From Novosphingobium sp. PC22D (GTDB lineage: Bacteria > Pseudomonadota > Alphaproteobacteria > Sphingomonadales > Sphingomonadaceae), in contig NZ_MWMO01000002.1 in assembly GCF_002556635.1 (NCBI RefSeq), forward strand, positions 1 to 64,000: a DNA stretch of 64,000 nt. Direction: 5' to 3'. Positions within the stretch are counted from its first letter, which is position 1. Every line of letters starts with the position of its first letter. The position numbers and the translations under genes are program-made. The notes under the pieces are model-generated. The model saw nothing but the letters and a program-made list of their open reading frames with translations, ran no database searches and was not told the DNA's origin. This document shows, piece after piece, positions 28,301 to 58,691 of this stretch.

Positions 28301-28686
28301 TATCGCGGCGTCACCGAGGTAACGACACTGCCTTCGGTTCCAGTACGAAATTCGAAGGCTATTCCCTCACCGATACTGACCTGTTCGAGGATCTGCGCGT
28401 CGGCTTCGAAGGCCATGGTCATTGCCGGCCATCCGATACTTTCGACCGGACTATGCTCGATGGTCACGGTGCCCGCCTCGGGATCGATGGCTGTAACCGT
28501 TCCCTCCGCGCTGGCGCTCTGCTCGCCGCCGGTCTCCTCCGCCATCGGCATTTCGCCTGACATGGGCATACTGTCCGAGTTCGCCATTTCGTCAGGCATC
28601 ATGGTCTCGGAGGTATCGTCCGCAGCATCGCAGGCTGCAAGCGCCAGCGGTGCCGCGAGCAGGATTATGTAGGTTAGGGTACGCAT
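28300..28686 (-). CDS. cusF: CusF-type periplasmic copper-binding lipoprotein
   Basis: A 128-residue protein with a lipobox (LALAAC at 14-19), a Met-rich linker ([14 protein letters not shown]) and a C-terminal CusF OB-fold. The Cu(I)/Ag(I) site is recognisable in [20 protein letters not shown]: His, the stacking Trp and the two Mets. It would hand Cu(I) to the CusCBA pump. The start overlaps cusA by 13 bases. A second CusF domain is fused to CusB upstream, so the system has two metallochaperones. Confidence 0.88.
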
Positions 28687-36496: not shown

Positions 36497-37216
36497 CTAG
36501 TCGATCCCGAATTCGGCTTTGAGCGCCGAGACGTTCTCGAAGCGGTCTGCTTCTGGCCGGGCGATAGCGGGTTTAGCGTTGACCCAGGTGTTCTCGCAGA
36601 CGAATTCGAGCATGGCTGCCGCGAGGTCGGCGTGCCTGCAACGAAAGCAACCCTCGGCAAGACGCTCGTCGGTAATGACGGCTTCACCCGTATAGGGTTC
36701 GTCGAGGAGCCAGCCCGGTCGCGCAGCCGTCCATTTCAGGCCTTTCGCGCGCTCCAGAAGATCTTCCATGGCGCGCATCTGTTCGAGAATATTGTGCAAG
36801 GCTGGTCTTGCCGTGAGCTCGAACCATGCAGGAACGCTGGGTTGCGGCTCTACAAACGCCGCCGATATCACGACGATCTGGGAAATGCCGGTCGTCGACA
36901 TCGCTTCCACCAGCCTGCGGGTTCCCTCCGTGTAAAGCGGAGGCGGATCGATCGTCGTGGATGGACTGAACCCTATACCGAGTGCGGAAATGACCGCACG
37001 ACAACCTTCAAGCTCGCTGCTGAAGTCGTCATTGAGAACGTCGCACTGGAAATACTCGACATTGTCGACCCTGTCCGATGGTTCGGGCAGGGTGTGTTCG
37101 AACGCTCGTACCGCGATGCCCTTGCGGACCGCATGGCGCAATATTTCCGTGCCGGTCTTTCCTCCGGCACCGAAGACCGCAAGGGGGGCTGCATCGGTCA
37201 CAGGCTCAGCTTCCAC
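36497..37216 (-). CDS. NAD(P)-binding atypical SDR protein
   Basis: A 239-residue Rossmann protein with the nucleotide motif VFGAGGKTGTEIL at the start and a QCDVLND segment typical of NmrA / NAD(P)-binding atypical short-chain dehydrogenases. Active-site YxxxK is not evident; ARPGWLLDEP is the usual late motif. Could be a redox-sensing or isomerase-type protein. It lies 44 bases before the MBL-rhodanese gene on the same strand, probably one transcript with it. Substrate unknown. Confidence 0.75.
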   Translation of the reverse strand: MEAEPVTDAAPLAVFGAGGKTGTEILRHAVRKGIAVRAFEHTLPEPSDRVDNVEYFQCDVLNDDFSSELEGCRAVISALGIGFSPSTTIDPPPLYTEGTRRLVEAMSTTGISQIVVISAAFVEPQPSVPAWFELTARPALHNILEQMRAMEDLLERAKGLKWTAARPGWLLDEPYTGEAVITDERLAEGCFRCRHADLAAAMLEFVCENTWVNAKPAIARPEADRFENVSALKAEFGID

Positions 37217-37269
37217 TGTAGCACCTCATTGTAAATTCGGCCGCGCTTGCCGGGCCGATCATGATTATG

Positions 37270-37301
37270 GAGCGGGCACCGACGGAAGCCGGCGCCCGCT
37301 C
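37270..37301. terminator. Hairpin after the lipoprotein gene
   Basis: GAGCGGGC at 37270-37277 pairs with GCCCGCTC at 37294-37301, extended by inner GCC/GGC pairs. It lies 9 bases beyond the stop of the minus-strand gene at 37310 and before the SDR gene. There is no long T-run, so it is a weak terminator or a stabilising stem separating two minus-strand units. Confidence 0.45.
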
Positions 37302-37309
37302 GCTCGTGT

Positions 37310-37798
37310 TCACGCTTCGCTGTTGCCGCAAGTCGTGTACCCCCAGAACCCGAACTCGTCCTTCATCCGGGGGCCGGCGACGATGAGCTCCTGCATTTGC
37401 AAGCCCGCGTCTCCTTCGTCATCGAGAATGCGCGTACGGATACGAAGCTCACCATTCGCATACTCACCCGAGGCGCTTGCCGTAACAGGGATCAGCTTGC
37501 CGTTGATCTTGATGGCCCCGCGACCGCTGTTGTCGTAGACGAATGACGGAAAAGCGACCTCGGTCAGGCGGAACTGGCACGTGTTTTCGGCTCCCAGCGC
37601 GGCGAGGTCCGCCTCGCTCATGGTCTCGGGCAGCATGAGGCCGGGGCTGAGGTTGGCAAGAGCGCTCGCAGCACTCTCTATCGGAGCTGCCGTCGCCGGA
37701 GGATCGAGCTGCGCTTCGCGATCATTGCCGACCGCGGTATTGGTGTTGCAGGCCGCCAGCGGGAGGGCTGCAAGCGTCAGAAGTGCGATCTTGTTCAT
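37310..37798 (-). CDS. Lipoprotein of unknown function
   Basis: A 162-residue protein with a clear lipobox (LPLAAC, Cys17). The mature part has a short low-complexity linker, then a compact domain with cysteines in ENTCQFRLTE and a terminal YTTCGNSEA that could form a disulfide. No family recognised. Its start overlaps the stop of the DUF305 gene (ATGA), so it is the last gene of the operon channel/DUF305/lipoprotein. Confidence 0.65.
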   Translation of the reverse strand: MNKIALLTLAALPLAACNTNTAVGNDREAQLDPPATAAPIESAASALANLSPGLMLPETMSEADLAALGAENTCQFRLTEVAFPSFVYDNSGRGAIKINGKLIPVTASASGEYANGELRIRTRILDDEGDAGLQMQELIVAGPRMKDEFGFWGYTTCGNSEA

Positions 37799-38322
37799 TG
37801 CTGCATCTCCTCGGGCAGGCGTTCTTCGGTGCGTGGACCGTTCTCCTCGATGTCCTCGATGAGATATTTCATCTCGGCGATCTCACGCCGCTGCGCGACG
37901 ATGATGGCCTGCGCAAGTTCGCGAACCCGCGGATCCTTCAGGCTCGCCCTCTCGCTGGTCATGATCGCGATCGAGTGGTGCGGGATCATCGCGGCCATGT
38001 ATTCGGTGTCGTCGACCGTGGTCTGGCTGCGTACGAGCCATAGCGCGAGTGCGAATACGAGGGCTCCGACGCCCAGGATGATGAAGTTCTTGGTCCGGTC
38101 CTTGTACATGCCCCACATGAAGAGAAGCATGACCACCATCATCATCGCGCCCATGACGAACATCATCCAGAAGCGCGTCTCGCTCCAGAACACGTCGTCC
38201 ATGTCGAAGCTGTTGGCGTACATCAGGAAGAACATGATCACGGTCGAGGTCGATACCATGGCCATGAATCGCCAGTAGTTCCCGCCCCCTCCCTTATCCG
38301 AGTGGGATGTGCTTTCAGTCAT
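37795..38322 (-). CDS. DUF305-domain membrane protein
   Basis: A 175-residue protein with three membrane helices in the first two thirds, several Met-rich (MMFVMGAMMMVVMLLFMWGM), then a short DUF305 segment carrying the signature MIPHHSIAIMTSERA and the later IVAQRREIAEMKYLIEDI. DUF305 proteins are common in copper and heavy-metal clusters and bind metal through the HH pair and Met residues; biochemical role is not settled. ATG 38322 overlaps the upstream stop. Confidence 0.8.
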   Translation of the reverse strand: MTESTSHSDKGGGGNYWRFMAMVSTSTVIMFFLMYANSFDMDDVFWSETRFWMMFVMGAMMMVVMLLFMWGMYKDRTKNFIILGVGALVFALALWLVRSQTTVDDTEYMAAMIPHHSIAIMTSERASLKDPRVRELAQAIIVAQRREIAEMKYLIEDIEENGPRTEERLPEEMQQ

Positions 38323-38732
38323 GCGTTTTCTCCTTCCTTCATCATGGTCCAGAACAATTGTGCCGAGCAGCTGATGAGCGCGAAGCCGGTCAAGGCTTCG
38401 ACGCCGGCAATGACGCGCAGGTGCTCGGTCGGGTAGATGTCGCCGAGCCCCAGCGTGGTCACGTTGATCAGCGAGAAATAGAAATAGTCCATCGCACTCA
38501 TCGCCGGCGTCTTGTCGAACCCGCCGAGGCCCAGCTCCGCGCCCAGCCAGAAACCGCCAGCGAAGAGCGTCGCGACAAGCAGGTGCGATGCCAGGACGAG
38601 AAGCGCGACCCCAAGTTTGGCGGAGAAATTTCCGGGTGCGTCGAGCATGCGATGCCCTGCGCCGAGGATCGACAGATGCACGCCGACCGAGGCCAGGAAA
38701 AGTGCAATGGCGAGAATTAGTGCGGCGATCAT
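38319..38732 (-). CDS. Two-helix ion channel, potassium-channel pore family
   Basis: A 137-residue protein with an N-terminal helix, a middle helix and a C-terminal helix framing a pore loop with TTLGLGDIYP, close to the potassium selectivity filter TxGYGD (Tyr replaced by Leu). Such short channels occur as single genes in bacteria. It overlaps the DUF305 gene and the permease gene at both ends, so it is coupled to them. Whether it passes K+ or another cation is unclear given the filter change. Confidence 0.75.
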   Translation of the reverse strand: MIAALILAIALFLASVGVHLSILGAGHRMLDAPGNFSAKLGVALLVLASHLLVATLFAGGFWLGAELGLGGFDKTPAMSAMDYFYFSLINVTTLGLGDIYPTEHLRVIAGVEALTGFALISCSAQLFWTMMKEGENA

Positions 38733-40078
38733 CGATGATCTCCATCGTGTGTGGCGGGCATTTCACGCAGCGCAGGATTCCGACGGAGATAGAACCATTC
38801 GGCTCCGAACACTGCGGCAATACCTGCGACCGCATAGGCGACGACCGCAGGGTCGGTTTTGAGCTTGGCGAGGGCAAAAGCTGTCAGGACTACGCCGTCC
38901 GCCATGAGCGCCGACCAGAGGATCCAGGCACGCGCGCCTATTTCTTCCCGCAAACCGCGCAGCACGCCCCAATGCACGAGCATGTCCATTACGAGATAGA
39001 AGAACGCTCCGAGCGAGGCGATCCGCGAAAGATCGAACAGGACCGCGAGCGTGCCGGCGACCACGACGGTATAGACCAGCATGTGACTGCGGATCGGTCC
39101 CTTCATCCCAAAATGGCTATGCGGGATCATCTTCATTTCGGTCAGCATCGTCAGCATTCGCGAAACGGCGAAAACGCTGGCGATGACACCCGAGGTCGTG
39201 GCTGCGATCGCGATTGCGACTGTGAAATAGAACCCAAGCTCTCCGAGCGCGGGGCGCGCAGCTGCCGCAAGCGAGTAATCGCGCGCTTGCGCTATTTCCG
39301 AAGTGCTGAGGCTGGCTCCGACCGCCACCGCGACCAGAAGGTAGACGACCACGCATACTGTGATCGAAATGATAATAGTTCTGCCAACATTTCGGTGCGG
39401 ATCGATGATTTCGCCGCCGCTGTTGGTGATGGTGGTGAAACCCTTGAACGCGAGGATCGAGAAGGCGACCGACGCGAGCAACGCGTCGAGACCCGAAAGC
39501 GCGACTGGCTCTGAGAAGGCGCCGCCCGAAAAGCCGCTGGCCCAGATCGCCGCAATCGCGAACAGGGCGATGCCGCCGATCTTGATCGCCGACATGACGA
39601 GAGAGAAACCGCTGACCGATTTGTTGCCTGCCGCATTCACGAAATAGGCGAAGACGATGAGCGCCAGTGCCGCGACGGAAACCAGAATGCCGCTGCTCTC
39701 GAGCCCAAAGGGCCGCAAGGCATAGGTCGCGAAGGTCCGAGCGACCAGGCTTTCGTTGATGACCATCGACAGCGCCATCAGGAGCGATGCCGATGCTGCA
39801 ACAACACCCGGTCCGTAGGCCTTCTGAAGAATCATCGCGATGCCGCCAGAGGAGGGCCAGCGGTTCGACATCTTGATGTAGCTGTAGGCGGCTAGGGAAG
39901 TGACCAGGGCGCCGACTATGAAAGAAAGCGGAAATAGCGGTCCAGCCAGTTCGGCAATCTGGCCGGTCAGTGCGAAAATACCAGCGCCGATCATGACGCC
40001 GGTTCCCATTGCGACACCGCCAAGCAGCGTTATCGATCCAGCACTCTTCCCATGTTGATCGTTGCCATCTGTCTGCAA
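38729..40078 (-). CDS. APC-family amino-acid/polyamine-type permease
   Basis: A 449-residue transporter with 12 predicted helices; the first has the APC signature GTGVMIGAGIFALTGQIAELAG and helix six the SVAFSILAFKGFTTITNSGGE segment. It is the first gene of the operon permease-channel-DUF305-lipoprotein. An ECF-type promoter pattern lies about 50 bases before ATG 40078, linking it to the copper sigma-factor circuit. Substrate cannot be told; export or uptake of a thiol or amino acid under metal stress is possible. Confidence 0.8.
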   Translation of the reverse strand: MQTDGNDQHGKSAGSITLLGGVAMGTGVMIGAGIFALTGQIAELAGPLFPLSFIVGALVTSLAAYSYIKMSNRWPSSGGIAMILQKAYGPGVVAASASLLMALSMVINESLVARTFATYALRPFGLESSGILVSVAALALIVFAYFVNAAGNKSVSGFSLVMSAIKIGGIALFAIAAIWASGFSGGAFSEPVALSGLDALLASVAFSILAFKGFTTITNSGGEIIDPHRNVGRTIIISITVCVVVYLLVAVAVGASLSTSEIAQARDYSLAAAARPALGELGFYFTVAIAIAATTSGVIASVFAVSRMLTMLTEMKMIPHSHFGMKGPIRSHMLVYTVVVAGTLAVLFDLSRIASLGAFFYLVMDMLVHWGVLRGLREEIGARAWILWSALMADGVVLTAFALAKLKTDPAVVAYAVAGIAAVFGAEWFYLRRNPALREMPATHDGDHR

Positions 40079-40128
40079 GTCTTTCCCCTGTCGATGTCCT
40101 CCCGTCCGAGAAACATCACGACAAGCAG

Positions 40129-40156
40129 TACGTTGCGAAGCGGCTCACCCCTCAAA
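40129..40156 (-). promoter_or_regulatory. ECF-type promoter before the APC permease operon
   Basis: On the minus strand TTTGAGGGGTGA (40156-40145), 12 bases, then CGTA (40132-40129). It has the same core RAGGGR-N15-CGTA as the sites before the ECF sigma operon, copA, the methyltransferase and the DUF2231 gene. Start codon lies about 50 bases downstream. Confidence 0.65.
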
Positions 40157-40317
40157 AAATTTTCTGGCGGGGCATGAGCCATCCTTGGGCTGGCCCCGAA
40201 ATCGCGTTGAGCTATCGATTTCCGGCGGCGCGCTCTTTCTTCCTGCAGCGATGCCGATGGCGGCGCGTCAAGGCACGGCAGTCCACGCTGAGTGCGCCTA
40301 ATATTCAGCGCGTCAAA

Positions 40318-40590
40318 TCAGGAAAACCGGGCCTGGAAAAACCGGTGCAGCGGGACCGCGATGAGTGCGATGTACCAGCCGTAGAGAAAACTGCCCACCG
40401 CTCCTGCAAGAAATCCCGACAGGGTCAGCCATTCGAACCATGGCAGCAACGGAGCCCAGGCTTGGTGCATGTGAAACCGCTCGGGTGCGAGGACTCCGAA
40501 GGCAATGCATAGGAGGTAGCTGACAAGCAGGAACACGCTGAGCGTCCAGCCCCATGCGAATATCGAGTTCTTGATTGATCCTTTTACCAT
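40318..40590 (-). CDS. DUF5676-type small membrane protein
   Basis: A 90-residue protein with two membrane helices (AWGWTLSVFLLVSYLLCIAFGVL and a second one ending LYGWYIALIAVPL) and a short periplasmic loop FHMHQAWAPLLP. The pattern matches DUF5676 family membrane proteins, which often occur in metal-resistance regions. ATG 40590 preceded by GGGAGAA. It stands alone; hairpin sequence lies upstream between it and the DUF411 gene. Function unknown. Confidence 0.72.
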   Translation of the reverse strand: MVKGSIKNSIFAWGWTLSVFLLVSYLLCIAFGVLAPERFHMHQAWAPLLPWFEWLTLSGFLAGAVGSFLYGWYIALIAVPLHRFFQARFS

Positions 40591-40634
40591 CGCATTTCTC
40601 CCACTTCGTGCGTCCTAAAATTATGCAAACGGAA

Positions 40635-40670
40635 GGGTCCGGGACCGTCGGGGCAGCCGGCCCCGGACCC
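40635..40670. terminator. GC-rich hairpin between DUF411 and DUF5676 genes
   Basis: GGGTCCGGG at 40635-40643 pairs with CCCGGACCC at 40662-40670. It follows the minus-strand DUF411 gene (stop at 40802) and precedes the DUF5676 gene. No strong T-run, so termination strength is uncertain. Confidence 0.4.
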
Positions 40671-40801
40671 AGCGGGATGATCGACAGGCATCTTAGCGCC
40701 CGTCCCGGTGTCCCGGGCTTCTGTGTTATTCCCGCGCGATTGTTCTTCAACGAGACATCGCCCTTATTTCTCGCGCGGCCACTGGCGTCAGTTCCTTACA
40801 A

Positions 40802-41266
40802 TCACCGATAAGATGCGAAGACGCTCTGTCCGGTCGGACCAAAGGCGATGACCTCATAGGGCTGGATCCGGTTTCCGGCCTCCATGCCGGGCGATCCCAG
40901 AGGCATTCCCGGAACCGCTAGACCGGCAACGCCGTCGGGCCGCTCGCGCAAAAGTCGGGCGACGGCTTCGGCGGGCACGTGACCTTCGATGATGTATCCA
41001 TCGACCTCCATCGTGTGGCACGACCACAATTCTTCCGGTACGCCGCGCGCTGTCTTGATCGCCGCCATGTCGTTGCTATCGACCGATGCCACCTTCGCGT
41101 TCATCCCATCTTCAAGATGGCCTGCCCAGTTGAGACAGCATCCACATCCGGGGTCCCTGAACATCGTATAGGTCGCTGCCTGAGCCACGTTCGAACAGGC
41201 TGCCAGCACGAGCAAGGCCGCGCCGCTAATCGATCGCCGGAGCAGCGAAGGCTTTTTCAAATTCAT
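40802..41266 (-). CDS. DUF411-family metal-binding lipoprotein-like protein
   Basis: A 154-residue exported protein: signal segment with a lipobox-like LAAC near 23, then the DUF411 fold with DPGCGCCLNWAGHL and SCHTMEVDGYIIEGHVPAEA. The CGCC and CHTM motifs suggest a thioredoxin-like fold that binds Cu; the family is met in copper and silver clusters. ATG 41266 lies inside the end of the methyltransferase gene (ATGA overlap), so it is expressed from the ECF-type promoter upstream of that gene. Confidence 0.82.
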   Translation of the reverse strand: MNLKKPSLLRRSISGAALLVLAACSNVAQAATYTMFRDPGCGCCLNWAGHLEDGMNAKVASVDSNDMAAIKTARGVPEELWSCHTMEVDGYIIEGHVPAEAVARLLRERPDGVAGLAVPGMPLGSPGMEAGNRIQPYEVIAFGPTGQSVFASYR

Positions 41267-41967
41267 TGTGCAATTCCTTTCTTGTATCCGCGCCATAGCG
41301 AGATCGTCCCGGTTGCCGTCGGGAACCGTTGGAGCAGGCATGGCTCGGTGAAGATTTCGGCGAATAGTTTTTCGACCTCGCCGTCGGCGCTGGGCTGCGT
41401 GTCGCTTATGCCGTCAAGAGACTGGACGGTCGCCCGGAAGAGGCTCCGCATGAGTGGGCTATCCTGCTTCATATAATCGGAGATCAACACGGTTCCGCCT
41501 GGCACGAGCAAGCTTTCGATGGTTTCCAGGATTGTCTGCTTCTTGCGCAAGGGGACCTGGTGCAGGACGAGGCTGCTGACGATCTTGTTCGGCTGCCACC
41601 CTGCGGGCAGCTTGAGGCTTTCGAGAAAGCCATTGTGCCATTTCACGAGATCGGCTCCCGCGCCAAACTTGCGCCGCGCAAGCGCGAGCGCATCCGGGTC
41701 GGGTTCGACACCGATCAGACCCGCTTCCGGACAATCCGTCATCAAGGCCTTGAGAAGAGTGCCGGTTCCGCTGCCAACATCGATCACCCGGTCGCCGGGG
41801 ACAAGGTGCAGTTCTTCGACAATCCTTTGTCGCCAGAGATGTTCGCGGGTGAACAGACCGATCGCCCGGTCGTAAAGGGGCGTCAGAAAGCTCTTGCCAA
41901 GAAGAGGCGTAAATTCGCCGTGATCTTCAGGTGCGGTGATATTGTTCACGAGCTGGTTCCCATTCAT
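41263..41967 (-). CDS. Class I SAM-dependent methyltransferase
   Basis: A 234-residue methyltransferase with motif I VIDVGSGTGTLL near residue 62, acidic motif II GVEPDPDALALAR, and post-I HNGFLESL, then VLHQVPLRKK and PGGTVLISDY. The family covers UbiE-like and small-molecule enzymes. Substrate unknown; it could methylate a thiol or a metal ligand. Divergent from the ECF sigma operon, with a matching promoter 37 bases before the start, and translationally coupled to a DUF411 gene. Confidence 0.8.
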   Translation of the reverse strand: MNGNQLVNNITAPEDHGEFTPLLGKSFLTPLYDRAIGLFTREHLWRQRIVEELHLVPGDRVIDVGSGTGTLLKALMTDCPEAGLIGVEPDPDALALARRKFGAGADLVKWHNGFLESLKLPAGWQPNKIVSSLVLHQVPLRKKQTILETIESLLVPGGTVLISDYMKQDSPLMRSLFRATVQSLDGISDTQPSADGEVEKLFAEIFTEPCLLQRFPTATGTISLWRGYKKGIAQ

Positions 41968-42004
41968 CCCGGGTTCGACCCGATTCTGACAGACCCGTCT
42001 CGGT

Positions 42005-42032
42005 TACGTATGGCGCTGGACATTCCCTCAAA
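42005..42032 (-). promoter_or_regulatory. ECF-type promoter before the methyltransferase-DUF411 operon
   Basis: On the minus strand TTTGAGGGAATG (42032-42021), 12 bases, then CGTA (42008-42005). The start codon at 41967 lies 37 bases further on. It is back to back with the promoter of the sigma operon at 42041, so one short region serves both directions. Confidence 0.7.
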
Positions 42033-42040
42033 AAAAGAAG

Positions 42041-42068
42041 TTTAAGGGATTGTGCAGGCGAGCGCGTA
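42041..42068 (+). promoter_or_regulatory. ECF-type promoter before the anti-sigma/sensor/sigma operon
   Basis: TTTAAGGGATTG (42041-42052), 12 bases, CGTA (42065-42068); the start codon at 42101 follows 32 bases after CGTA. The copA promoter has exactly the same layout and the same 32-base leader, which suggests autoregulation by the sigma factor encoded here. Confidence 0.75.
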
Positions 42069-42100
42069 TAGGACACGTGCAACCCACAGGAGTTTTTCGG

Positions 42101-42397
42101 ATGCGTGACAATCACTCTCTTGATGCGGTGCTCGGAACGCTTTCCACCACCGCCGCCAACGAGGTCCCAGCCGACTTCATGGATGGCGTTTGGCAGCGCG
42201 CCGGACAGCTTGGCGAAATCGCCGACCGACGCCGCCGGACGGCCCTTTTCGTCGGTCTGTTCGTCGTCGGGCTTGGAGCTGGCGCCGGAACGAGCGGTTG
42301 GCCCGGCGGCTATGGCACGTCTTCCGCGTCATTTGGCGAGGGTCTTATCCTCGGCGAACAGCTGTCCCCATCGGCGCTCCTCCATGTGGAGCAATAG
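42101..42397 (+). CDS. Small membrane anti-sigma-like protein (CnrY-like)
   Basis: A 98-residue protein: cytoplasmic N-terminal part (about 1-45) with DAVLGTLSTTAAN and FMDGVWQRAG, one membrane helix (TALFVGLFVVGLGAGAG), and a short periplasmic tail. Order and design match CnrY/NccY, the membrane anti-sigma factor that holds an ECF sigma until a periplasmic metal sensor signals. AGGAG precedes ATG 42101. It is followed by a CnrX-like gene and a sigma gene. Sequence identity to CnrY is not claimed; assignment rests on topology and order. Confidence 0.7.
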   Translation: MRDNHSLDAVLGTLSTTAANEVPADFMDGVWQRAGQLGEIADRRRRTALFVGLFVVGLGAGAGTSGWPGGYGTSSASFGEGLILGEQLSPSALLHVEQ

Positions 42398-42400
42398 GGT

Positions 42401-42835
42401 TTGAAGACGACGCATATCGTTCTCGCGGTGCTTCTCGCAGCACTTGCAGGATGCCTCGGCGCGATTGCCGCGGATCGCTGGGCCAATCACGAGGCCGGCT
42501 CCGGCCTCCACGATTTCGTGCACGACGAGCTCACCCTGACGGCCGACCAGGAGCAGCGTCTCGATGCGCTCGAGGCCCGTTTCGCTGTCGAAAGGGCACG
42601 GCTCGAAGGATCGGCGCGCGCAGCCAATGCCCGGCTCGCCCAGGCGATGGAAAATGAGCACGAGTACGGTCCCGAGGTTTCGGCCGCGATCGACGAGGTG
42701 CATGCGCGTATGGGCGATCTGCAGAAAGCAACGGTACGGCATGTCTTCGACATGCGTGAAATTCTCGAACCCGAGCAGCAACGCCAGTTCGACCGCAAGG
42801 TCTCCGACGCCCTGACCCGCGACCCGCGCGACTGA
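42401..42835 (+). CDS. Periplasmic heavy-metal sensor (CnrX/CzcX-like)
   Basis: A 144-residue protein anchored by an N-terminal helix (THIVLAVLLAALAGCLGAIA), then a helical domain with the LTLTADQEQRLDALEARF start and EILEPEQQRQFDRKV end typical of the metal-resist/CnrX four-helix family. Candidate metal ligands are His in ADRWANHEAG, HDFVHDEL and VRHVFDM. TTG start at 42401 just after the anti-sigma stop. It should sense periplasmic metal and release the sigma factor; copper is likely because of the regulon. Confidence 0.78.
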   Translation: MKTTHIVLAVLLAALAGCLGAIAADRWANHEAGSGLHDFVHDELTLTADQEQRLDALEARFAVERARLEGSARAANARLAQAMENEHEYGPEVSAAIDEVHARMGDLQKATVRHVFDMREILEPEQQRQFDRKVSDALTRDPRD

Positions 42836-42841
42836 AGCGCC

Positions 42842-43402
42842 ATGTCGGGGGCGGGCGACAATCCGGATGAGGCCCTTGTCTCGCAGGTGAGGGCCGGTAA
42901 CAAGCGGGCTTTCAGCAAGCTCGTCGAGCATGAAACCGGTCGGCTTCTCGCGCTCGCGACACGCATGCTTTCCTCTCCTTCTCAGGCGGAGGACGTTGTT
43001 CAGGACAGCCTCGCTTCGGTGTGGCTGACGCGCCATCGGCTCGATCCGGACAAGCCGATCGGACCCTATCTGACAACCGTCGTCCTCAACCGCTGCCGGG
43101 ACCGTTTGCGCAGGCGCAAGGTCGCAGGCTTTTTCGGACTGTCGGGTGATGACGAACTCCATTCCATCGCCGACGATTTGCCGGGTCCTGAAGCGTTGGC
43201 CGTTTCCAGGGAAGAGCTCAATCTCGTTCAGGCCGAGATCGCGCGAATGCCTTTAAGGCTGCGCGAAGCGCTTGTGCTCGTGACCATCGAGGGGCGTAGC
43301 CAGGCCGAGGCGGCCGATCTTCTCGGAACGACCGAAAAGGCGATCGAAACCCGCGTATATCGCGCGCGCAACAGGCTGAAGGAGCGCTTCGAAAAACTTT
43401 GA
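42842..43402 (+). CDS. ECF-type RNA polymerase sigma factor (CnrH-like)
   Basis: A 186-residue ECF sigma factor: region 2 (FSKLVEHETGRLLALATRML...AEDVVQDSLASVW), linker, and region 4 (LRLREALVLVTIEGRSQAEAADLLGTTEKAIETRVYRARNRLKE). With the two upstream genes it forms a sigma/anti-sigma/sensor circuit of CnrYXH form. The same promoter pattern in front of its own operon, copA and three other units marks its probable targets. Stop lies 55 bases before copA. Confidence 0.85.
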   Translation: MSGAGDNPDEALVSQVRAGNKRAFSKLVEHETGRLLALATRMLSSPSQAEDVVQDSLASVWLTRHRLDPDKPIGPYLTTVVLNRCRDRLRRRKVAGFFGLSGDDELHSIADDLPGPEALAVSREELNLVQAEIARMPLRLREALVLVTIEGRSQAEAADLLGTTEKAIETRVYRARNRLKERFEKL

Positions 43403-43425
43403 GGGGTTGGCTGGGCGCGCGCGTA
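43398..43425 (+). promoter_or_regulatory. ECF-type promoter before copA
   Basis: TTTGAGGGGTTG (43398-43409), 12 bases, CGTA (43422-43425). It begins within the sigma gene's last codons and leaves a 32-base leader to ATG 43458, identical in layout to the sigma operon's own promoter. Confidence 0.75.
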
Positions 43426-43457
43426 AGTAACGGTAAACGCCAAGTCAGGAGCCCTTT

Positions 43458-45266
43458 ATGATCGCCGTCAATCGACGCAAGTTTCTCGGAGCCGGAGCAG
43501 GAGGAATGGGTCTGCTCGGCCTTGCCGGGGCGATGCCTGCCTGGGCACGGGGCGCGGACATCCTCGCAGGTAACGCCCGCAAGGGGCTGGACGAGATATC
43601 CGGCCCCAATATCGACCTCACCGTTGCCCGATCGGCCTTCGCGACCGGCAACAGGCGCGGCGGCGCGATCGCCGTCAATGGCACGATCCCCGGTCCGCTG
43701 TTGCGTTTGCAGGAAGGCACGACCGTCCGGCTCAATGTCCATAACCAGCTCGAGGAAGATACTTCGATCCACTGGCACGGTCTGCTCGTGCCGTTTCAGC
43801 TCGATGGAGTGCCCGGCGTGAGCTTCCCCGGTGTCAAACCGGGAGAGACCTTCACCGCCGAGTTTCCGGTTCGCCAATCGGGCACTTACTGGTGGCACTC
43901 GCATAGCGGCCTGCAGGAACAGGCCGGGCATTACGGCGCGATCGTGATCGATCCCGCCGGACCCGATCCGGTTCAGGCCGACCGCGAATATATCGTGGTG
44001 CTGAGCGAATTCAGCGCCATGTCGCCCCACACCATTTTCGACAAGCTCAAGAAGGGCGAAGGCTACTTCAACTACAACCAGAACACCTGGACCGACGATT
44101 ACCCGCTTTCGGGCGAGGATCGCCGGATGTGGGCGAAAATGCGCATGATGCCGACGGACATCCTCGACGTGTCGAGCGCGGCTTATACCTATCTTCTGAA
44201 CGGCCATGGCCCGCTCGACAATCTGGAATACCTCTTCCGCCCGGGCGAACGCGTGCGGCTGCGCTTCATCAATGCCGGCGCCATGACCTTCTTCAATATT
44301 CGCATTCCCGGCCTGCCGATGACCATCGTTCAGGCGGACGGGCAGAACGTCGAGCCGGTGGAGGTCGACGAGTTCCAGATCGGTGTGGCCGAGACATACG
44401 ACGTCGTCGTGACGCCGGGCGCGCAACAAGCCTACACGCTGGTCGCGGAGTCGATGGACCGCTCGGGCATGGGTATTGCCACACTCGCGAGCGCACCCGG
44501 CGCTCGCGCCGCCATTCCGCCGCTGCGCGATCCGCCGCTTCTGACCATGGCCGACATGGGCATGAGCGGCATGGACCACGGCTCGTCTGGCGATGCCGGC
44601 ATGTCGGGCATGGACCACGGAAGTGGCGGCGACATGGCGGGGATGGATCATGGTTCGTCCGGCCAATCCGAGATGGCAGGCATGGCCGGCATGTCGGGGA
44701 TGCAGATGCGCGACACGTCGCTTCTGCCGCCCGATGTGAAGGTCGGGCCCGGTCTCGACATGGTCTCGATGAACCCGGTCGACCGCATGGGCGATCCCGG
44801 CATCGGTCTCGCCGATGTGCCGCATCGTACGCTCGACTATCGCAAGCTGCGCGCGCTGACTCCACACCGCGAGGGCCGCACGCCGTCCCGGCGAATGGAA
44901 ATTCATCTGACCGGCAATATGGAGCGCTACATGTGGTCGTTCGACGGCAAGAAGTTCTCCGCCGTCTCAGACGAGCCGATCCGTTTCGCCTATAACGAGC
45001 GCGTGCGCGTGAAGCTCGTCAACGACACGATGATGGCGCACCCCATTCACTTGCACGGTCATTTCTTCGAGCTGGTCAATGGCGCGCCGGCCGATCGTCA
45101 ACCGCTCAAGCACACGGTAATCCTGCAGCCGGGTGGCAGCGCGCAGTTCGACCTGACGGCGGACGAGCCGGGCGACTGGGCCTTCCACTGTCACCTTCTC
45201 TACCACATGCATGCCGGGATGTTTCAGATCGTCACGGTCGCCAATCCCGACGGGAGCGAAGCATGA
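43458..45266 (+). CDS. copA: Copper-resistance multicopper oxidase CopA/PcoA
   Basis: A 602-residue periplasmic oxidase with a Tat signal (NRRKFLGAGAGGMGLLGL ending PAWA). Copper ligand motifs HWHGLLVP, WWHSHSGLQEQAG, HPIHLHGHFFEL and FHCHLLYHMHAGM are complete. The middle holds a Met/His-rich block with MSGMDHGS-type repeats (about 360-415), which stores Cu(I). Different from the CueO-like enzyme at 26700. It oxidises and sequesters copper together with CopB. The stop overlaps copB (ATGA). Confidence 0.92.
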   Translation: MIAVNRRKFLGAGAGGMGLLGLAGAMPAWARGADILAGNARKGLDEISGPNIDLTVARSAFATGNRRGGAIAVNGTIPGPLLRLQEGTTVRLNVHNQLEEDTSIHWHGLLVPFQLDGVPGVSFPGVKPGETFTAEFPVRQSGTYWWHSHSGLQEQAGHYGAIVIDPAGPDPVQADREYIVVLSEFSAMSPHTIFDKLKKGEGYFNYNQNTWTDDYPLSGEDRRMWAKMRMMPTDILDVSSAAYTYLLNGHGPLDNLEYLFRPGERVRLRFINAGAMTFFNIRIPGLPMTIVQADGQNVEPVEVDEFQIGVAETYDVVVTPGAQQAYTLVAESMDRSGMGIATLASAPGARAAIPPLRDPPLLTMADMGMSGMDHGSSGDAGMSGMDHGSGGDMAGMDHGSSGQSEMAGMAGMSGMQMRDTSLLPPDVKVGPGLDMVSMNPVDRMGDPGIGLADVPHRTLDYRKLRALTPHREGRTPSRRMEIHLTGNMERYMWSFDGKKFSAVSDEPIRFAYNERVRVKLVNDTMMAHPIHLHGHFFELVNGAPADRQPLKHTVILQPGGSAQFDLTADEPGDWAFHCHLLYHMHAGMFQIVTVANPDGSEA

Positions 45267-46576
45267 AAATTCGTATTGTCAGCCTGCTCGCATCGGTCGC
45301 AGCCGGCTCAGTTCTCGCCTCCCCCGCGGCGGCGCAGCATGCCGGTCATTCGCCGGCGGAGCCGCAGCAAAGCGCCGAGGCGCAGGCTGACGCGAAGACG
45401 AAGTGCGAGGAAGAAGCCGAGCGCCACCGCGCGATGGGGCATCCGGTTGCAGATGGAGCATGCGAACCGGCTGCTCAACCTGAAGCCGCCATGGACCGCT
45501 CGCAGATGGATCACTCAACCATGGATCATGGTGCGATGACCGCTCAGGATGGCCATTCTGGCATGACAATGCCTGTGGACGCTGCCCGTCCACAGGCATC
45601 GCCCGAAAGTCATGAAGGAATGGATCACGGCTCGATGCCGCAGGGCAAGCCCGCCGAAGGCGCGATGGATCATTCGCAGATGAATCACGGCGAGATGGGT
45701 CAGGCGGAGGCCAGTTCGTCGATGGACCATGGGCAGATGGATCACAGCCAGATGAACCATGGGGAGACGCCTTCGCAGGACAGGCAGGGCATGGACCATT
45801 CGGCGATGCAGATGGGCTCGGACGATGATATCCCGCTGCTGCCGCCTCCTCCAGAAGCAGGGAGCGGCCCAGCGCGCGCGGCGGTCGCCATCTGGGGCGA
45901 GGAAGCCATGAACGAAGCGCGCCGCGAGCTTGTCCGCGAGACCGACGGAGGAATGCGCTTCTGGTTTCAGGGCGACCGGCTCGAGTACCGCGCCCGCGAG
46001 GGGAAGGATGGATATCTGTGGGACATCCAGGGATATTATGGCGGCGACATCGACAAATTCTGGTTCAAGTCCGAGGGTGAGGGCAGCTTCGGCGAACCCA
46101 TAGAAGGCGCCGAGGTCCAGGCGCTCTGGAGCCGCGCCATTGCGCCCTTCTTCGATTTCCAGGCGGGTGTTCGCCAGGACCTGACCGGTCCGGAACGCAC
46201 GCACGCGGTTATCGGTATCCAAGGGATCGCGCCTTACCAGTTCGAGGTCGATGCCGCGGCCTTCGTCTCCACCAAGGGCGATGTGACGGCGCGTTTTGAG
46301 GGCGAACTTGATCAGCGCATCACGCAGCGGCTGATCCTTCAACCGCGTGCCGAAATCGCACTTTCCGCTCAGGATATTCCCGAACTCGGCATTGGCGCTG
46401 GCCTCGACCGGATCGAGGCAGGTCTGCGTCTTCGCTACGAGTTCGCACGCGAATTCGCGCCCTATGTCGGCGTTTCCCAGGAATGGCGCATCGGCGACAG
46501 CGCGGATTTTGCGCGGGCCGCCGGAGAGGATCCGAGCGTCACCAATTATGTCGTCGGTGTGCGATTCTGGTTCTGA
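45263..46576 (+). CDS. copB: Outer-membrane copper-resistance protein CopB/PcoB
   Basis: A 437-residue protein: signal peptide (ending SPAAAQ), a long Met/His/Asp-rich region of about 160 residues with DHSQMNHGE-like repeats that can bind many Cu ions, then a CopB beta-barrel starting IWGEEAMNEARREL and ending in the aromatic tail GVRFWF. The barrel sits in the outer membrane and the repeat arm lies in the periplasm. Translation is coupled to copA. Confidence 0.9.
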   Translation: MKIRIVSLLASVAAGSVLASPAAAQHAGHSPAEPQQSAEAQADAKTKCEEEAERHRAMGHPVADGACEPAAQPEAAMDRSQMDHSTMDHGAMTAQDGHSGMTMPVDAARPQASPESHEGMDHGSMPQGKPAEGAMDHSQMNHGEMGQAEASSSMDHGQMDHSQMNHGETPSQDRQGMDHSAMQMGSDDDIPLLPPPPEAGSGPARAAVAIWGEEAMNEARRELVRETDGGMRFWFQGDRLEYRAREGKDGYLWDIQGYYGGDIDKFWFKSEGEGSFGEPIEGAEVQALWSRAIAPFFDFQAGVRQDLTGPERTHAVIGIQGIAPYQFEVDAAAFVSTKGDVTARFEGELDQRITQRLILQPRAEIALSAQDIPELGIGAGLDRIEAGLRLRYEFAREFAPYVGVSQEWRIGDSADFARAAGEDPSVTNYVVGVRFWF

Positions 46577-46600
46577 AATCTCAAAAAGGATAGAACTTCC

Positions 46601-47119
46601 ATGACCAAGCCTTTGACACGCATCGCGGCGACTGCGCTTGTTGCCACGCTGATACCGCTGCCAGCCTTCGCGCAGCAGATGGACCACTCTTCCCATGCGA
46701 ACCATCAGATGCACGCGATGGACGCTTCGGCGGACGATGTCGCGGGCGCTGAAGAAACCCTCAAGGCCTATCGCACCGCTCTTGAAGCGCGCGACGCGCA
46801 GGCAATGCGCGCGCTCTTCGCCGAGGACTCGGCGATCTTCGAGAATGGCAAGGCCGAAGGAAGCTTTGCCAATTACATGGAGCACCATTTGGGCCCCGAG
46901 CTCGACGCGATTGTGAGCTTCACCTTTACCGACCCCACGCTGACCGTCACCCGGATGGGGCACATGGCCCATGCCTATGAGACGTATGGCTATCGCATCG
47001 AACTTAGCGATGGCCGGGTGATCGAGCGCGACGGCGTGGCGACATCGGTGCTTGCTCACGATGCGGACGGGTGGAGAATCGTCCAGTACCATTCCTCGTC
47101 GCGCGCGCCGCGCAACTGA
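46601..47119 (+). CDS. Secreted NTF2/SnoaL-like protein
   Basis: A 172-residue exported protein: signal peptide (ending PAFAQQ), a short Met/His strip (MDHSSHANHQMHAMD), then an NTF2-like fold (AEETLKAYRTALEARDAQAMRALFAED ... DGWRIVQYHSS). Such domains bind small ligands or serve as scaffolds. The N-terminal copper-like strip and its place 24 bases after copB suggest a periplasmic copper helper. No catalytic site can be named. Confidence 0.75.
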   Translation: MTKPLTRIAATALVATLIPLPAFAQQMDHSSHANHQMHAMDASADDVAGAEETLKAYRTALEARDAQAMRALFAEDSAIFENGKAEGSFANYMEHHLGPELDAIVSFTFTDPTLTVTRMGHMAHAYETYGYRIELSDGRVIERDGVATSVLAHDADGWRIVQYHSSSRAPRN

Positions 47120-47146
47120 TTACGGCTTTCGAAGAGGTAGCACCGG

Positions 47147-47878
47147 TTGGCAACGCCGTCGCTGAAGCTGCGCCTGCATGTGCTCGGCAGCAAGATCCAC
47201 AAATGGCTGGCGATTTTCGTCGGTGTCCAGGTTCTCTTGTGGATGGGAACCGGCGCCCTCATGTCGTTTCTCGACCTGGAAGAAGTTCGCTCCGAACATG
47301 TCGTTTCGCGTGAACAAGAGGCGCTGCCCGCCGATGCCCCGCTCCCGGCCTGGGTCGCAAACGACGGTACTCTTGCAGCGGTAACGACACGTTCGCTCGA
47401 CGGCGATGCCGTGACCGAGGTCCGCAAGGTTGACGGTAGCGTGAGCCTCCACGATCCGGTGACTGGGCGTAAACTCTCCCCCATCTCGGCGGCAACGGCA
47501 AAATCCATCGCCTTGCGCGCATGGACCGGGCCGCGCACGACCATCGAGGCCGCACGGATCGTCGATGACCCCATCGGAACCGAGTTTCGCGGCCCTTTTC
47601 CGGCCTGGCAGGTCACCTATGCTGACGAGGCTTCGACGCGCATCTACATCGATGCCGCCAGCGGCACGCTCGGGGCGGCGCGCAGCGATACATGGCGCCT
47701 GTTCGATTTCATCTGGGGCCTCCACATCATGGACTGGACCGAGCGCGACCGCATCAACAGTTGGTGGCTGCTGCTGTTCGGCATTGGCGGCACGATCATA
47801 GCCCTGTCGGGTTTCGTCCTGCTGGCGAACCGGATGCCGAGGCTGCGCCGCCGCGCAAAGAAGAGCAAGCTCGCCTGA
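47147..47878 (+). CDS. PepSY-domain membrane protein
   Basis: A 243-residue protein with an N-terminal helix (IFVGVQVLLWMGTGALMSFL), a periplasmic PepSY-type domain, then a second helix (WWLLLFGIGGTIIALSGFVLLA) and a basic tail RRRAKKSKLA. PepSY membrane proteins are often linked to metal reduction or electron transfer to periplasmic carriers. TTG start at 47147 preceded by GAAGAGG. Twenty-seven bases after the NTF2-like gene, probably same transcript. Exact role unknown. Confidence 0.72.
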   Translation: MATPSLKLRLHVLGSKIHKWLAIFVGVQVLLWMGTGALMSFLDLEEVRSEHVVSREQEALPADAPLPAWVANDGTLAAVTTRSLDGDAVTEVRKVDGSVSLHDPVTGRKLSPISAATAKSIALRAWTGPRTTIEAARIVDDPIGTEFRGPFPAWQVTYADEASTRIYIDAASGTLGAARSDTWRLFDFIWGLHIMDWTERDRINSWWLLLFGIGGTIIALSGFVLLANRMPRLRRRAKKSKLA

Positions 47879-48030
47879 GCCCATGGGGCTTATTCGCGTG
47901 GGCGAACGCCTTACCCTCGTTCGCCAGGCCGAACGCGGCCAGGAGCCGAATGCGTTCGACGATCGCGATGATGCCGCCAGCAAGCGTGACCACCCGGGCG
48001 CACTTCAGTCGCGCTGAACTATCAAATTAA

Positions 48031-48058
48031 TGCGAGGGGCACGCGGCTGCCGTGCGTA
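48031..48058 (+). promoter_or_regulatory. ECF-type promoter before the DUF2231 gene
   Basis: TGCGAGGGGCAC (48031-48042), 12 bases, CGTA (48055-48058). It keeps the RAGGGR-N15-CGTA core but not the leading TTT. Its position shows that the frame opening at 48052 cannot be the true start; ATG 48109 with a signal peptide fits. Confidence 0.6.
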
Positions 48059-48108
48059 TCAGGCACATAGGTCGCACTTTAACTGCAGGGTCGGGAGACA
48101 TACGAGAC

Positions 48109-48780
48109 ATGAAAGCCCCCTCATTTCTGGCGCTGCTCGCCGCAAGCCTGCTCTTCGTCGGACCCGTTCAGGCTCATGGCGACGAAAAGCACGGCGAAGA
48201 GGCGAGCGCCGCGCCTGCTGCCACCAATGGCGATGTGCACGACCAGGCGGCCATGGCGCAGATGGGCGAGACTGCGGATGCTGGCGAGTCCTCCGGCGCG
48301 CACGATGAAGCGGGCGCAGCCCATGACGAGGCCGGTGGCCATGCGGATGAGAGCGAAACCGGCGTCATGGCCGTACTGAAAAAGCTGCATCCGGCAACGA
48401 TCCACTTCCCGATCGCCTTGTTTTTCATGGCTGCGGCCACCGAATTGTTCGTGATGCGCCGGAAAGGAGCGGGCCTGGAAAGTGCGGTGCGCGTACTCGT
48501 CTACGGCGGAGCAATCGGCGCAGTCGTCGCAGTTCTGTTCGGATGGATTCACACCGGTCTGTGGTTCGGCGGCGATACTGTCATGCAAGTCCATCGATGG
48601 ACCGGTATGCTGATCGCGGTTCTCGGTATTGCGATGGCATACCTCGCGAGCAGGCCGAGCCAGAGCCGCGCATGGTTGCGCGCGTCGATCTTCTCCATGG
48701 CGGCACTCGTTCTCATCCAGGGGTTCCTTGGCGGCGAGCTCGCGCACGGACCGGACCATCTTGGCGTTTCGTGGCTCTGA
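48109..48780 (+). CDS. DUF2231-family membrane protein with His-rich arm
   Basis: A 223-residue protein from ATG 48109: signal segment (SFLALLAASLLFVGPVQAHG), a periplasmic arm rich in His, Asp and Glu (HGDEKHGEE to HDEAGGHADESE), then a four-helix DUF2231 domain that opens LHPATIHFPIALFFMAA, the family's hallmark His pair. The His pair may bind haem or metal. Controlled by an ECF-type promoter in front. Followed 14 bases later by a lipoprotein gene. Confidence 0.75.
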   Translation: MKAPSFLALLAASLLFVGPVQAHGDEKHGEEASAAPAATNGDVHDQAAMAQMGETADAGESSGAHDEAGAAHDEAGGHADESETGVMAVLKKLHPATIHFPIALFFMAAATELFVMRRKGAGLESAVRVLVYGGAIGAVVAVLFGWIHTGLWFGGDTVMQVHRWTGMLIAVLGIAMAYLASRPSQSRAWLRASIFSMAALVLIQGFLGGELAHGPDHLGVSWL

Positions 48781-48794
48781 AGGAGTTGAATAAC

Positions 48795-49202
48795 ATGCGA
48801 ATTCTGAAATCGAACACCGCGATAGCATTTCTCGCGACCGCGCCATTGACGTTCGCTCTCGCCGCTTGTGACCAAGCGCAGGAGAGCACACCGGCTGCTG
48901 AGGTTTCGCCTATGGGCGAAGCTGCGGTGGTGGCTGGCACGGCACCCGAGGCGGGTCTTGCCGATCCGGCAGCCTCTCCCTCCAAAGATGAGGCAGCGAC
49001 CGCTCGGGAGGACGCTCTTTCGACAAATGGCGCCGCCACGCCCGCCTCACGGCACGCTGCCTCTCCCGCATCACGCGCAACTGCCACACCCGCACCTCCA
49101 GCAACACGCACGCAACCCGCGAGCGAGGCGACCCAGCCGGCCGATCCCCATGCGGGTCATGACATGTCCTCGATGGCCGATCACGACATGGAAGGTATGT
49201 GA
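48795..49202 (+). CDS. Ala/Thr-rich lipoprotein with Met/His tail
   Basis: A 135-residue lipoprotein (lipobox LALAAC). The mature chain is low-complexity, rich in Ala, Pro, Thr and Ser, ending in a copper-type tail HAGHDMSSMADHDMEGM. The tail motif resembles those in CopA and CopB here. GGAG precedes ATG 48795 (the longer frame to 48543 lies inside the upstream gene). Probably tethers copper near the membrane; no named family. Confidence 0.7.
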   Translation: MRILKSNTAIAFLATAPLTFALAACDQAQESTPAAEVSPMGEAAVVAGTAPEAGLADPAASPSKDEAATAREDALSTNGAATPASRHAASPASRATATPAPPATRTQPASEATQPADPHAGHDMSSMADHDMEGM

Positions 49203-49342
49203 TCGGACGCGTTTCCCGGTGACACGGCTATCCAGGAGATACCCTCGGCAAAAACACAAACGAACATCGCAAGATCAGGAAAGGACGGCCCCGCCTCCCC
49301 CCGACGCCCTGCGGGTCGCAGGTGCCCCCAAGGGGCCGTTCA

Positions 49343-50977: not shown

Positions 50978-51307
50978 ATGACCAAGACTGCCCTTCCGGC
51001 CCAGCAGCGCACGCTCAACCGTGCTCATGGCCGCGACTACATTCTTCCCGCCTGCGTGGCGCTGGCCTGCGCCGGTGCCGCATTTGCCGGCGCCGACACC
51101 ACCTTCGACCCCGCGTTGACCAAGTTCACCGACTTCCTCGAAGGCTCGGGCGGCAAGATCATCACCGTGCTCAGCCTTGCGGGCGGTTTGATCGGTCTCG
51201 CCTCCGGGCGCTTCTCGCTCGGCCAGGTCGCGGTGCCGGTCGGCGTCGGGATCGGTGTCGGCACCGGCGTGCCGATCGTCACCTCGGTCGTGACCGCGGT
51301 CATCTGA
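50978..51307 (+). CDS. traA: F-type conjugative pilin TraA
   Basis: A 109-residue prepilin with a long leader ending at a signal-peptidase site (AGAAFAGAD) and a mature part with two hydrophobic segments (IITVLSLAGGLIGLASG and VAVPVGVGIGVGTGVPIVTSVV) joined by a short loop, as in F pilin. First gene of the transfer operon, so it likely sets transcript start. Weak AAAGG ribosome site. Overall size and two-helix form support TraA. Confidence 0.75.
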   Translation: MTKTALPAQQRTLNRAHGRDYILPACVALACAGAAFAGADTTFDPALTKFTDFLEGSGGKIITVLSLAGGLIGLASGRFSLGQVAVPVGVGIGVGTGVPIVTSVVTAVI

Positions 51308-51338
51308 TCAGCGGATCCGGTCACGACAGGAGGGCGGC

Positions 51339-51626
51339 ATGGCCGACAGGTACCTCGTTCCACGGCGGCTCGACGACCCGGAGCTCATCGGCTTCTGGAC
51401 CATCGACGAGTTTGCAGGGATTCTCATTCCCTTCGCCTGGGGCATTCTCTCGCAGCATATCTTCATCGGTATCGGCCTGGCCGCCGGGGCCTGGCTTGCC
51501 TTGCGGAAGGCAAAGGCACGCGGCGCCGGTTCGGCACTGGTGCATGCTGCGTACTGGTACCTGCCCGGGAGCTTTCTCGGGCTGAAAGCCACGCCGCCCT
51601 CCCACTGCCGCCTGCTGGCGGGCTGA
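51339..51626 (+). CDS. traL: Conjugal transfer protein TraL
   Basis: A 95-residue inner-membrane protein starting with the TraL signature RRLDDPELIGFWTIDEFAG, followed by helices LIPFAWGIL and IFIGIGLAAGAWLAL. TraL belongs to the F-type pilus assembly base. Thirty-one bases after traA, preceded by AGGAGGGCGGC. Order traA-L-E-K-B is that of F. Confidence 0.85.
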   Translation: MADRYLVPRRLDDPELIGFWTIDEFAGILIPFAWGILSQHIFIGIGLAAGAWLALRKAKARGAGSALVHAAYWYLPGSFLGLKATPPSHCRLLAG

Positions 51627-51638
51627 GGGAGGCAAACC

Positions 51639-58314: not shown

Positions 58315-58691
58315 TGGTCTCGCATCTCGCCGACCGGACCCCTCCTGCCAACATCCGCAGCCTGCTGCCGTTCCTGCAAGGGAGCTGCTTCATCCTCATT
58401 GAGACCGCGCGCTTTGCCGCGACCTCGCTGCTGATCGTGCTGGGATTGCCGCTCGCGCTGTTCCTGTTCGTTGCGGGCTGGGACCTTGGCGGCCTCTTCA
58501 CCCAGCTCGCCAATCTGTCGGACCGATATCTCGAAGCCGACGGCCTGCGCCGCAGCCTGTTCAGCCAGGACCTCAAGGGCTGCTTCCTTGTCCTCGCTGG
58601 CGCGGTGACGCTGTTTCGCATGCCGCGCTTCCTCAAGCGGCTCGCGGCCGATCTCGACAACCATCCGGCCCGGGAGGCAAACCGTGACTGA
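58311..58691 (+). CDS. Unknown membrane protein between traC and trbI
   Basis: A 126-residue protein with one strong helix (AATSLLIVLGLPLALFLFVAGW) near residue 40-60 and a weaker one (GCFLVLAGAVTLF) near 95, with basic ends. It overlaps genes on both sides (ATGATG and GTGACTGACACG region), so it is part of the operon. No F-plasmid homologue could be recognised; it may be a clade-specific assembly factor. Confidence 0.6.
   Translation: MMVSHLADRTPPANIRSLLPFLQGSCFILIETARFAATSLLIVLGLPLALFLFVAGWDLGGLFTQLANLSDRYLEADGLRRSLFSQDLKGCFLVLAGAVTLFRMPRFLKRLAADLDNHPAREANRD

Follow-up and report, generated by a model that had tools for sequence, protein, structure and literature searches.

Which regulator controls the block of copper genes in the 64-kb stretch formed by positions 1 to 64,000 of contig NZ_MWMO01000002.1 of Novosphingobium sp. 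PC22D, hereafter called the window? In Gram-negative bacteria, two-component systems are usually held responsible for the periplasmic copper response. A preliminary description of the window had pointed to five matches to RAGGGR-N15-CGTA and had read them as the promoters of one extracytoplasmic function (ECF) sigma factor. We found all five sites at the positions and on the strands described, and their reading as one sigma-factor regulon is supported: the same boxes stand at CnrH promoters, the sites accompany the sensor/sigma system from genome to genome, and they head the same genes after rearrangement. The five sites are very probably promoters of a single ECF sigma factor, the CnrH-like protein encoded at 42842-43402, in a circuit of the CnrYXH type that has been rewired to copper genes. 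The predicted -35 box is RAGGG, mostly after a T, and is separated by 16 bases from the predicted -10 box, CGTA. The regulatory operon and the pattern matches are given here with the scores of a weight matrix described below.

42101..42397, plus strand: putative membrane anti-sigma factor of 98 amino acids, with one hydrophobic segment by eye and a C-terminal SPxxLL
42401..42835, plus strand: CnrX-like periplasmic metal sensor (Metal_resist, PF13801)
42842..43402, plus strand: CnrH-like ECF sigma factor of 186 amino acids, which matches CnrH
42041..42068, plus strand: predicted promoter of the anti-sigma/sensor/sigma operon (TTTAAGGGATTG-N12-CGTA); score 31.1, predicted start 42077, position conserved in relatives
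42005..42032, minus strand: predicted methyltransferase-DUF411 promoter, divergent from the sigma promoter; score 22.1, predicted start 41996
43398..43425, plus strand: predicted copA-copB promoter; score 28.5, predicted start 43434
48031..48058, plus strand: predicted DUF2231-lipoprotein promoter; score 25.3, predicted start 48067, same site in loci L088-L091
40129..40156, minus strand: predicted APC permease-channel-DUF305 promoter; score 22.4, predicted start 40120, relatives with a pre-APC site of their own
28344..28368, minus strand: sixth pattern match, doubtful; score 13.5, in frame at the 3' end of a cusF-like open reading frame (ORF)

In the window, RAGGGR-N15-CGTA is matched six times against a shuffle mean of 0.26, and none of 100 shuffles reached six. 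Five of these matches are the sites described earlier and the sixth (28344-28368) is extra. Three of the window sites carry the longer form TTTRAGGGRWTG-N12-CGTA, again as described. The sigma-operon and methyltransferase-DUF411 sites stand back to back, with 14 bases separating their RAGGG boxes, and at the copA site the -35 box (TTTGAGGGG; window 43398-43402) takes in the TGA that ends the sigma gene. The letters TTTGAGGGG are also found in the copA sites of many relatives. The leaders before the anti-sigma gene and copA had been called identical; they are equal in length, at 32 bases each, and differ in sequence. The other leaders measure 37 bases (methyltransferase), 50 bases (APC permease, with a TTG start) and 50 bases (DUF2231, with its ATG at 48109). 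The sixth match lies about 97 bases ahead of a multicopper oxidase gene (26700-28247) and was considered as its promoter. That role is doubtful, as the match consists of in-frame codons (EGIAFEFRT) that are kept in L124 and L125 with synonymous changes, and it scores only 13.5; it is probably a coding coincidence.

In the complete genome of 5.02 Mb, 17 matches to the bare pattern stand against 15 to its backwards control, so that the strong enrichment seen in the window does not extend to the genome. As a genome-wide test the bare pattern was too weak, and a weight matrix and co-occurrence tests were used instead. The matrix was built from the sigma loci of relatives (L092-L119, sigma factors 35-73% identical), leaving out the window; 63 distinct near-sigma sites were picked by the core pattern, and 54 remained after dereplication. 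Its core letters were fixed by this choice of patterned sites, and the test is therefore the ranking of the window sites. The consensus reads T-[GA]AGGG-N-T ... G-CGTA-T, with an A/T-rich stretch 5' of it. By this matrix the five sites of the window score 31.1, 28.5, 25.3, 22.4 and 22.1; the sixth match follows at 13.5, and no other position in the window exceeds 8. Among 20 Markov-shuffled windows, the maximum was 10.8. Six of the 17 genome matches lie in the window, five on contig C54, which holds a second copy of the system, and six elsewhere, where the scores are 21.0, 18.3, 13.8, 10.7 and two below 8. A site scoring 21.0 on contig C5 (L011 8934(-)) overlaps the ATG of a 703-amino-acid ORF that resembles a TonB-dependent receptor by eye.

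The spacer was counted in 32 loci of relatives, each 19.5 kb long. RAGGG-N16-CGTA occurs 116 times in these loci, all other spacers between 8 and 25 (17 lengths) give 61 occurrences in total, and the backwards pattern at spacer 16 occurs 6 times. When any sixth base and spacers of 14-16 were allowed, at least one site was present in 29 of 29 relatives' sigma loci, and 22 of the 29 had the three sites of the sigma operon, the divergent operon and copA (in one of these 22 loci, one spacer is longer by a base). Sites were then assigned to genes in 35 loci at a matrix score of at least 18, with only the window proteins as queries and with near-sigma sites that had helped to train the matrix. Among the 103 sites so obtained, 76 lie no more than 160 bases upstream of a window-gene homolog (copA 26, anti-sigma 20, DUF2231 12, APC 7, methyltransferase 6, DUF411 3, channel 1, P-type ATPase 1), and none of the 103 lies only inside such a homolog when 40-base margins are applied. 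Many of the 27 sites left without assignment are sigma-operon or divergent sites of distant loci whose anti-sigma escapes BLAST. A divergent pair within 60 bases was found in 31 of 37 loci, with RAGGG boxes 8-14 bases apart in 26 of the 31. Two polymerases could hardly bind both back-to-back promoters simultaneously, and we predict that the two compete. Sites also stand before TonB-dependent receptors, as recognized by Pfam, in two relatives (L122 9595(+) and L114 16624(-)).

Co-occurrence was examined in 149 genomes of the family, a carrier being a genome in which a CnrX-like sensor was found (E up to 1e-15, sensor alignment). The sensor is present in 60 of the 149. In the 60 carriers, the pattern TTTGAGGG-N16-CGTA is matched 85 times (11 backwards), and in the 89 non-carriers 5 times (12 backwards); for GAGGGRT-N13-GCGTAT the numbers are 65 (2 backwards) and 5 (3 backwards). 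Either type of site occurs in 53 of 60 carriers versus 8 of 89 non-carriers, and clear enrichment is confined to genomes with the CnrX-like sensor. Defining carriers by the sigma factor alone (32 of 149) was tried and dropped: it gave 67 sites (8 backwards) versus 23 (15 backwards) in the other 117 genomes, a less clean division because carriers with a distant sigma factor are missed (e.g. G050, L119, with a sigma factor 35% identical).

The sigma gene had been placed in a CnrYXH-like order with a small anti-sigma and a periplasmic sensor, and homology bears this out. The order is anti-sigma, periplasmic sensor, sigma, as in CnrYXH. Among solved structures, the sensor matches CnrX (3zg1, E 4.1e-22) and NccX (4clv, E 4.6e-22), and CnrH is the best of 16 matches to the sigma factor (E 1.7e-28; 40.9% identity over 93%). 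Their region-4 helices are alike by eye (KAIETRVYRAR in the window sigma, KAVEGRIGRAR in CnrH). In a tree, CnrH and the copper-linked sigma factors share one fork (94/90, just under the tool's star) whose internal order the tree does not resolve, and the five other ECF factors of this genome that were included fall outside it. The first gene of the operon owes the name anti-sigma solely to its position and to the size and membrane segment of its product; the 98-amino-acid protein has no Pfam family match. A C-terminal [SA]PxxLL is present in 34 of 34 anti-sigmas (the window, C54 and 32 relatives), and CnrY ends in SPFGLL. The metal ligands of CnrX, which we take to be H42, H46, E63, H119 and M123, align with H37, H41, E58, H114 and M118 of the window sensor, and these are invariant in all 34 sensors of the same set and in 12 of 12 in a second alignment. 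H87, H101 and M104 are likewise invariant in 34 of 34, are absent from CnrX and NccX, and form a candidate copper site of the sensor.

The boxes themselves can be compared with those of pMOL28, where the cnrY promoter reads AAGGGG...CCGTATA and the cnrC promoter GAGGGG...CCGTATA, both being RAGGG-N17-CGTA. PMC9045368 gives starts for cnrY and cnrC and states that they lie within one base of those found earlier for cnrYp and cnrCp by primer extension; placed on pMOL28, each of the two is 12 bases past the C of CGTA, with the RAGGG box beginning at -34. By their letters, the predicted window promoters are of the CnrH promoter type. The boxes, the fixed spacer, their conservation, the tie to the sensor/sigma system across genomes and the type shared with the mapped cnrY and cnrC promoters are all observed in the sequence alone, and we infer that the window sigma would read each of the five promoters directly.

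CnrYXH, the nickel/cobalt (Ni/Co) resistance regulator of Cupriavidus metallidurans pMOL28, resembles the window system in gene order, in its homologous sensor and sigma factor, in its RAGGG and CGTA boxes and in having the first target promoter directly after the sigma gene. In CnrYXH, the sigma factor promotes its own operon and the resistance genes after it and is released from its anti-sigma, as described in part of PMC4803752. The window system differs in that its targets are copper genes rather than cnrCBAT efflux, copA-copB taking the place of the resistance-nodulation-division (RND) pump cnrCBA after the sigma gene, and in a spacer of 16 instead of 17. In further contrast to CnrYXH, the sigma promoter usually stands back to back with another one, the targets are scattered over several operons, the sensor has three additional invariant His/Met residues, and the anti-sigma cannot be aligned to CnrY. 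By analogy with CnrYX, periplasmic metal, most likely copper, would bind the CnrX-like sensor, the anti-sigma would then free the sigma factor, and the freed sigma would raise its own operon together with the methyltransferase-DUF411, copA-copB, DUF2231-lipoprotein and APC permease-channel-DUF305 operons, with a start predicted 9 bases after CGTA at each promoter. The genes around the sigma operon are the following.

43458..45266, plus strand: copA, multicopper oxidase (TIGR01480, above cut-off)
45263..46576, plus strand: copB (PF05275)
46601..47119, plus strand: SnoaL-like protein
47147..47878, plus strand: PepSY membrane protein
48109..48780, plus strand: DUF2231 membrane protein, ATG start after the promoter
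48795..49202, plus strand: small lipoprotein-like protein, no family match
41263..41967, minus strand: class I methyltransferase
40802..41272, minus strand: DUF411 protein (CopG-like; we take DUF411 to be CopG)
40318..40590, minus strand: small membrane protein (DUF5676 match just under cut-off), inferred end of the methyltransferase operon
38729..40078, minus strand: APC-family permease
38319..38732, minus strand: ion channel (PF07885)
37795..38325, minus strand: DUF305 protein
37310..37798, minus strand: DUF6692 protein

Most of the targets are genes for copper handling (copAB, DUF411, DUF305 and, on two plasmids, copCD), and a copA homolog is present in 29 of the 32 relatives' loci. Copper would be the inducer, a signal suggested because of this gene content: copA, copB, DUF411 and DUF305, with copCD and a copper ATPase on plasmids. 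For TIGR01387 (CopR/CusR/SilR), all 40 matches listed for this genome were below cut-off, the best reaching 210.4 of 279.2 bits. It is conceivable, if unlikely, that the sites do belong to the window sigma and the circuit senses nickel or cobalt, several metals or metal damage to the envelope, the copper genes being part of a general response. The five aligned CnrX ligand positions are kept in every one of the 34 sensors, as such a response would have it, and Cus-like RND homologs (33-34% identity) lie within the loci of the relatives L102, L106, L109 and L117. However, the 76 assigned sites head homologs of the copper island and none heads an RND pump (with 27 sites unassigned and window proteins as the only queries), the plasmid relatives carry copCD, copAB and a copper ATPase, and the three further invariant His/Met residues of the sensor are those absent from CnrX and NccX.

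The sites head the same genes in rearranged copies. The second system of this genome, on C54, has a sigma factor 46% identical to that of the window. There, copA-copB-APC-channel stands behind one site, whereas APC-channel has a site of its own in the window, and DUF2231-lipoprotein-DUF411 stands behind another site, back to back with the second sigma operon. Further matrix matches with scores of 19-28 occur on C54 at ~45-50 kb (L009 8956(-), 9217(+), 12025(-) and 14166(+)); the extra sites precede a DUF411-like protein (box GAAGGA), a small protein, a cytochrome c and a PAS histidine kinase, and a similar cytochrome c is found downstream of a site in L122. Three sphingomonad plasmids examined carry the system, and copC-copD forms the divergent operon on a Sphingobium and a Sphingomonas plasmid. 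In another genome (G122), sites stand before a TonB-dependent receptor, a cytochrome c and a P-type ATPase ~2.4 Mb from the first sensor locus, with a second sensor nearby.

A regulon limited to the three sites around the sigma operon, in which the APC (40129) and DUF2231 (48031) sites are matches by chance or belong to another sigma factor, is quite improbable. Both of these sites lack parts of the long form TTTRAGGGRWTG, and the DUF2231 site lacks the preceding run of T, yet they score 22-25 by a matrix that never saw them, and relatives have their own sites before APC (7) and DUF2231 (12, some divergent from the sigma operon). On C54, moreover, the copA site is followed by copA-copB and then by APC-channel, and a separate site precedes DUF2231, which is transcribed away from the second sigma operon. 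We consider it very improbable that the boxes are operators of a DNA-binding regulator of the MerR or CopR type. The shortness of both boxes and the frequent back-to-back pairing of the sites (31 of 37 loci) would suit operators, but cnrY and cnrC have these same boxes as promoters, with correctly spaced starts; the spacer length is constant, the leaders are short, the sites track the sensor/sigma system, and no TIGR01387 match above cut-off was found in this genome.

Several observations weigh against assigning the five sites to a rewired CnrYXH-type circuit. The compared genomes are related, L088-L091 being near copies of the window, and the counts are not independent. In the 32 loci the backwards pattern peaks at other spacers, with 22 occurrences at spacer 13 and 16 at spacer 22. 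The bare pattern shows no genome-wide enrichment (17 versus 15 backwards), so the pattern alone is unspecific. Comparison of the anti-sigma with CnrY by hhalign gave no detectable sequence kinship (probability 0.45%). The nearest characterized sensor responds to Ni/Co, not copper, and 3 of the 32 relatives' loci have no copA homolog. Among five non-cnr plasmid loci, three have N16 sites; a Caulobacter plasmid locus has an N17 site only, before an ATPase, and such a promoter is missing from an Agrobacterium plasmid locus, which differs in gene order and lacks copper genes. Finally, a later table, in the part of PMC11647585 available, labels the cnrY start TSS_53286 as RpoD; the available text of PMC9045368 places both an RpoD-dependent and a CnrH-dependent promoter at the cnrY region. 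The Caulobacter site (L129 2515(-), Caulobacter sp. FWC26 plasmid p1) is RAGGG-N17-CGTA, with a spacer of Cnr length, and its heavy-metal P-type ATPase adjoins a similar sigma operon.

Other metal-linked ECF factors offer less close comparisons. CorE of Myxococcus xanthus (ECF238/ECF44), which is the only ECF factor for copper that the available text of a review (PMC10141476) names, is likewise an ECF sigma for copper genes including a multicopper oxidase; there, a Cys-rich C-terminal extension controls CorE instead of an anti-sigma (PMC10141476). The window sigma has 186 amino acids and one Cys, ends in RLKERFEKL without such an extension, and comes with a putative membrane anti-sigma and a sensor. 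SigF of Caulobacter crescentus is also an alphaproteobacterial ECF sigma linked to metal stress, but its promoter is GTAACC-N16-CGAA and not RAGGG-N16-CGTA, and its targets are others (available part of PMC3511200). CorE and SigF were therefore rejected as the kind to which the window sigma belongs, the former on the missing Cys-rich extension and the latter on the promoter. SigC of M. tuberculosis (PMC7924339) and an Acinetobacter sigma factor (PMC12153292) are reportedly linked to copper, going by title or word counts only. Most features place the window system in the CnrYXH kind, from which it departs in its targets, its spacer and its additional sensor residues. A literature search, to which the ECF classification (10.1093/nar/gkaa1229) was out of reach, found no published description of a copper-linked CnrH-type system.

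An anti-sigma/sensor/sigma circuit of the CnrYXH type thus adjoins copper genes, with the sensor in 60 of the 149 family genomes, and offers a testable promoter code, RAGGG-N16-CGTA. Through this code, a methyltransferase, an APC permease, a channel, DUF2231 and a cytochrome c, whose roles are unassigned, become tied to copper. CnrX and the window-type sensor make a natural pair in which to study metal selection by periplasmic sensors. Tentatively, it is hypothesized that a Ni/Co-type ECF circuit has been retuned to copper by the extra His/Met set (H87, H101 and M104) on the CnrX fold, and that this mobile, self-regulated circuit, with back-to-back and probably mutually exclusive promoters, may serve many sphingomonads as a main periplasmic copper response, instead of a CopRS/CusRS two-component system.

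With a second copy in this genome, the circuit appears to be mobile among sphingomonads. The copper block (window 36842-49300, 12.46 kb) is 100.0% identical in Croceicoccus pelagius Ery9 and Qipengyuania sp. XHP0207, and in 35 others of the 39 loci compared it is 78-99% identical over the aligned parts; the block may have moved recently between genera. Beside it, at window ~51000-64000, lie ORFs that by eye resemble a conjugative type IV secretion (tra) set.

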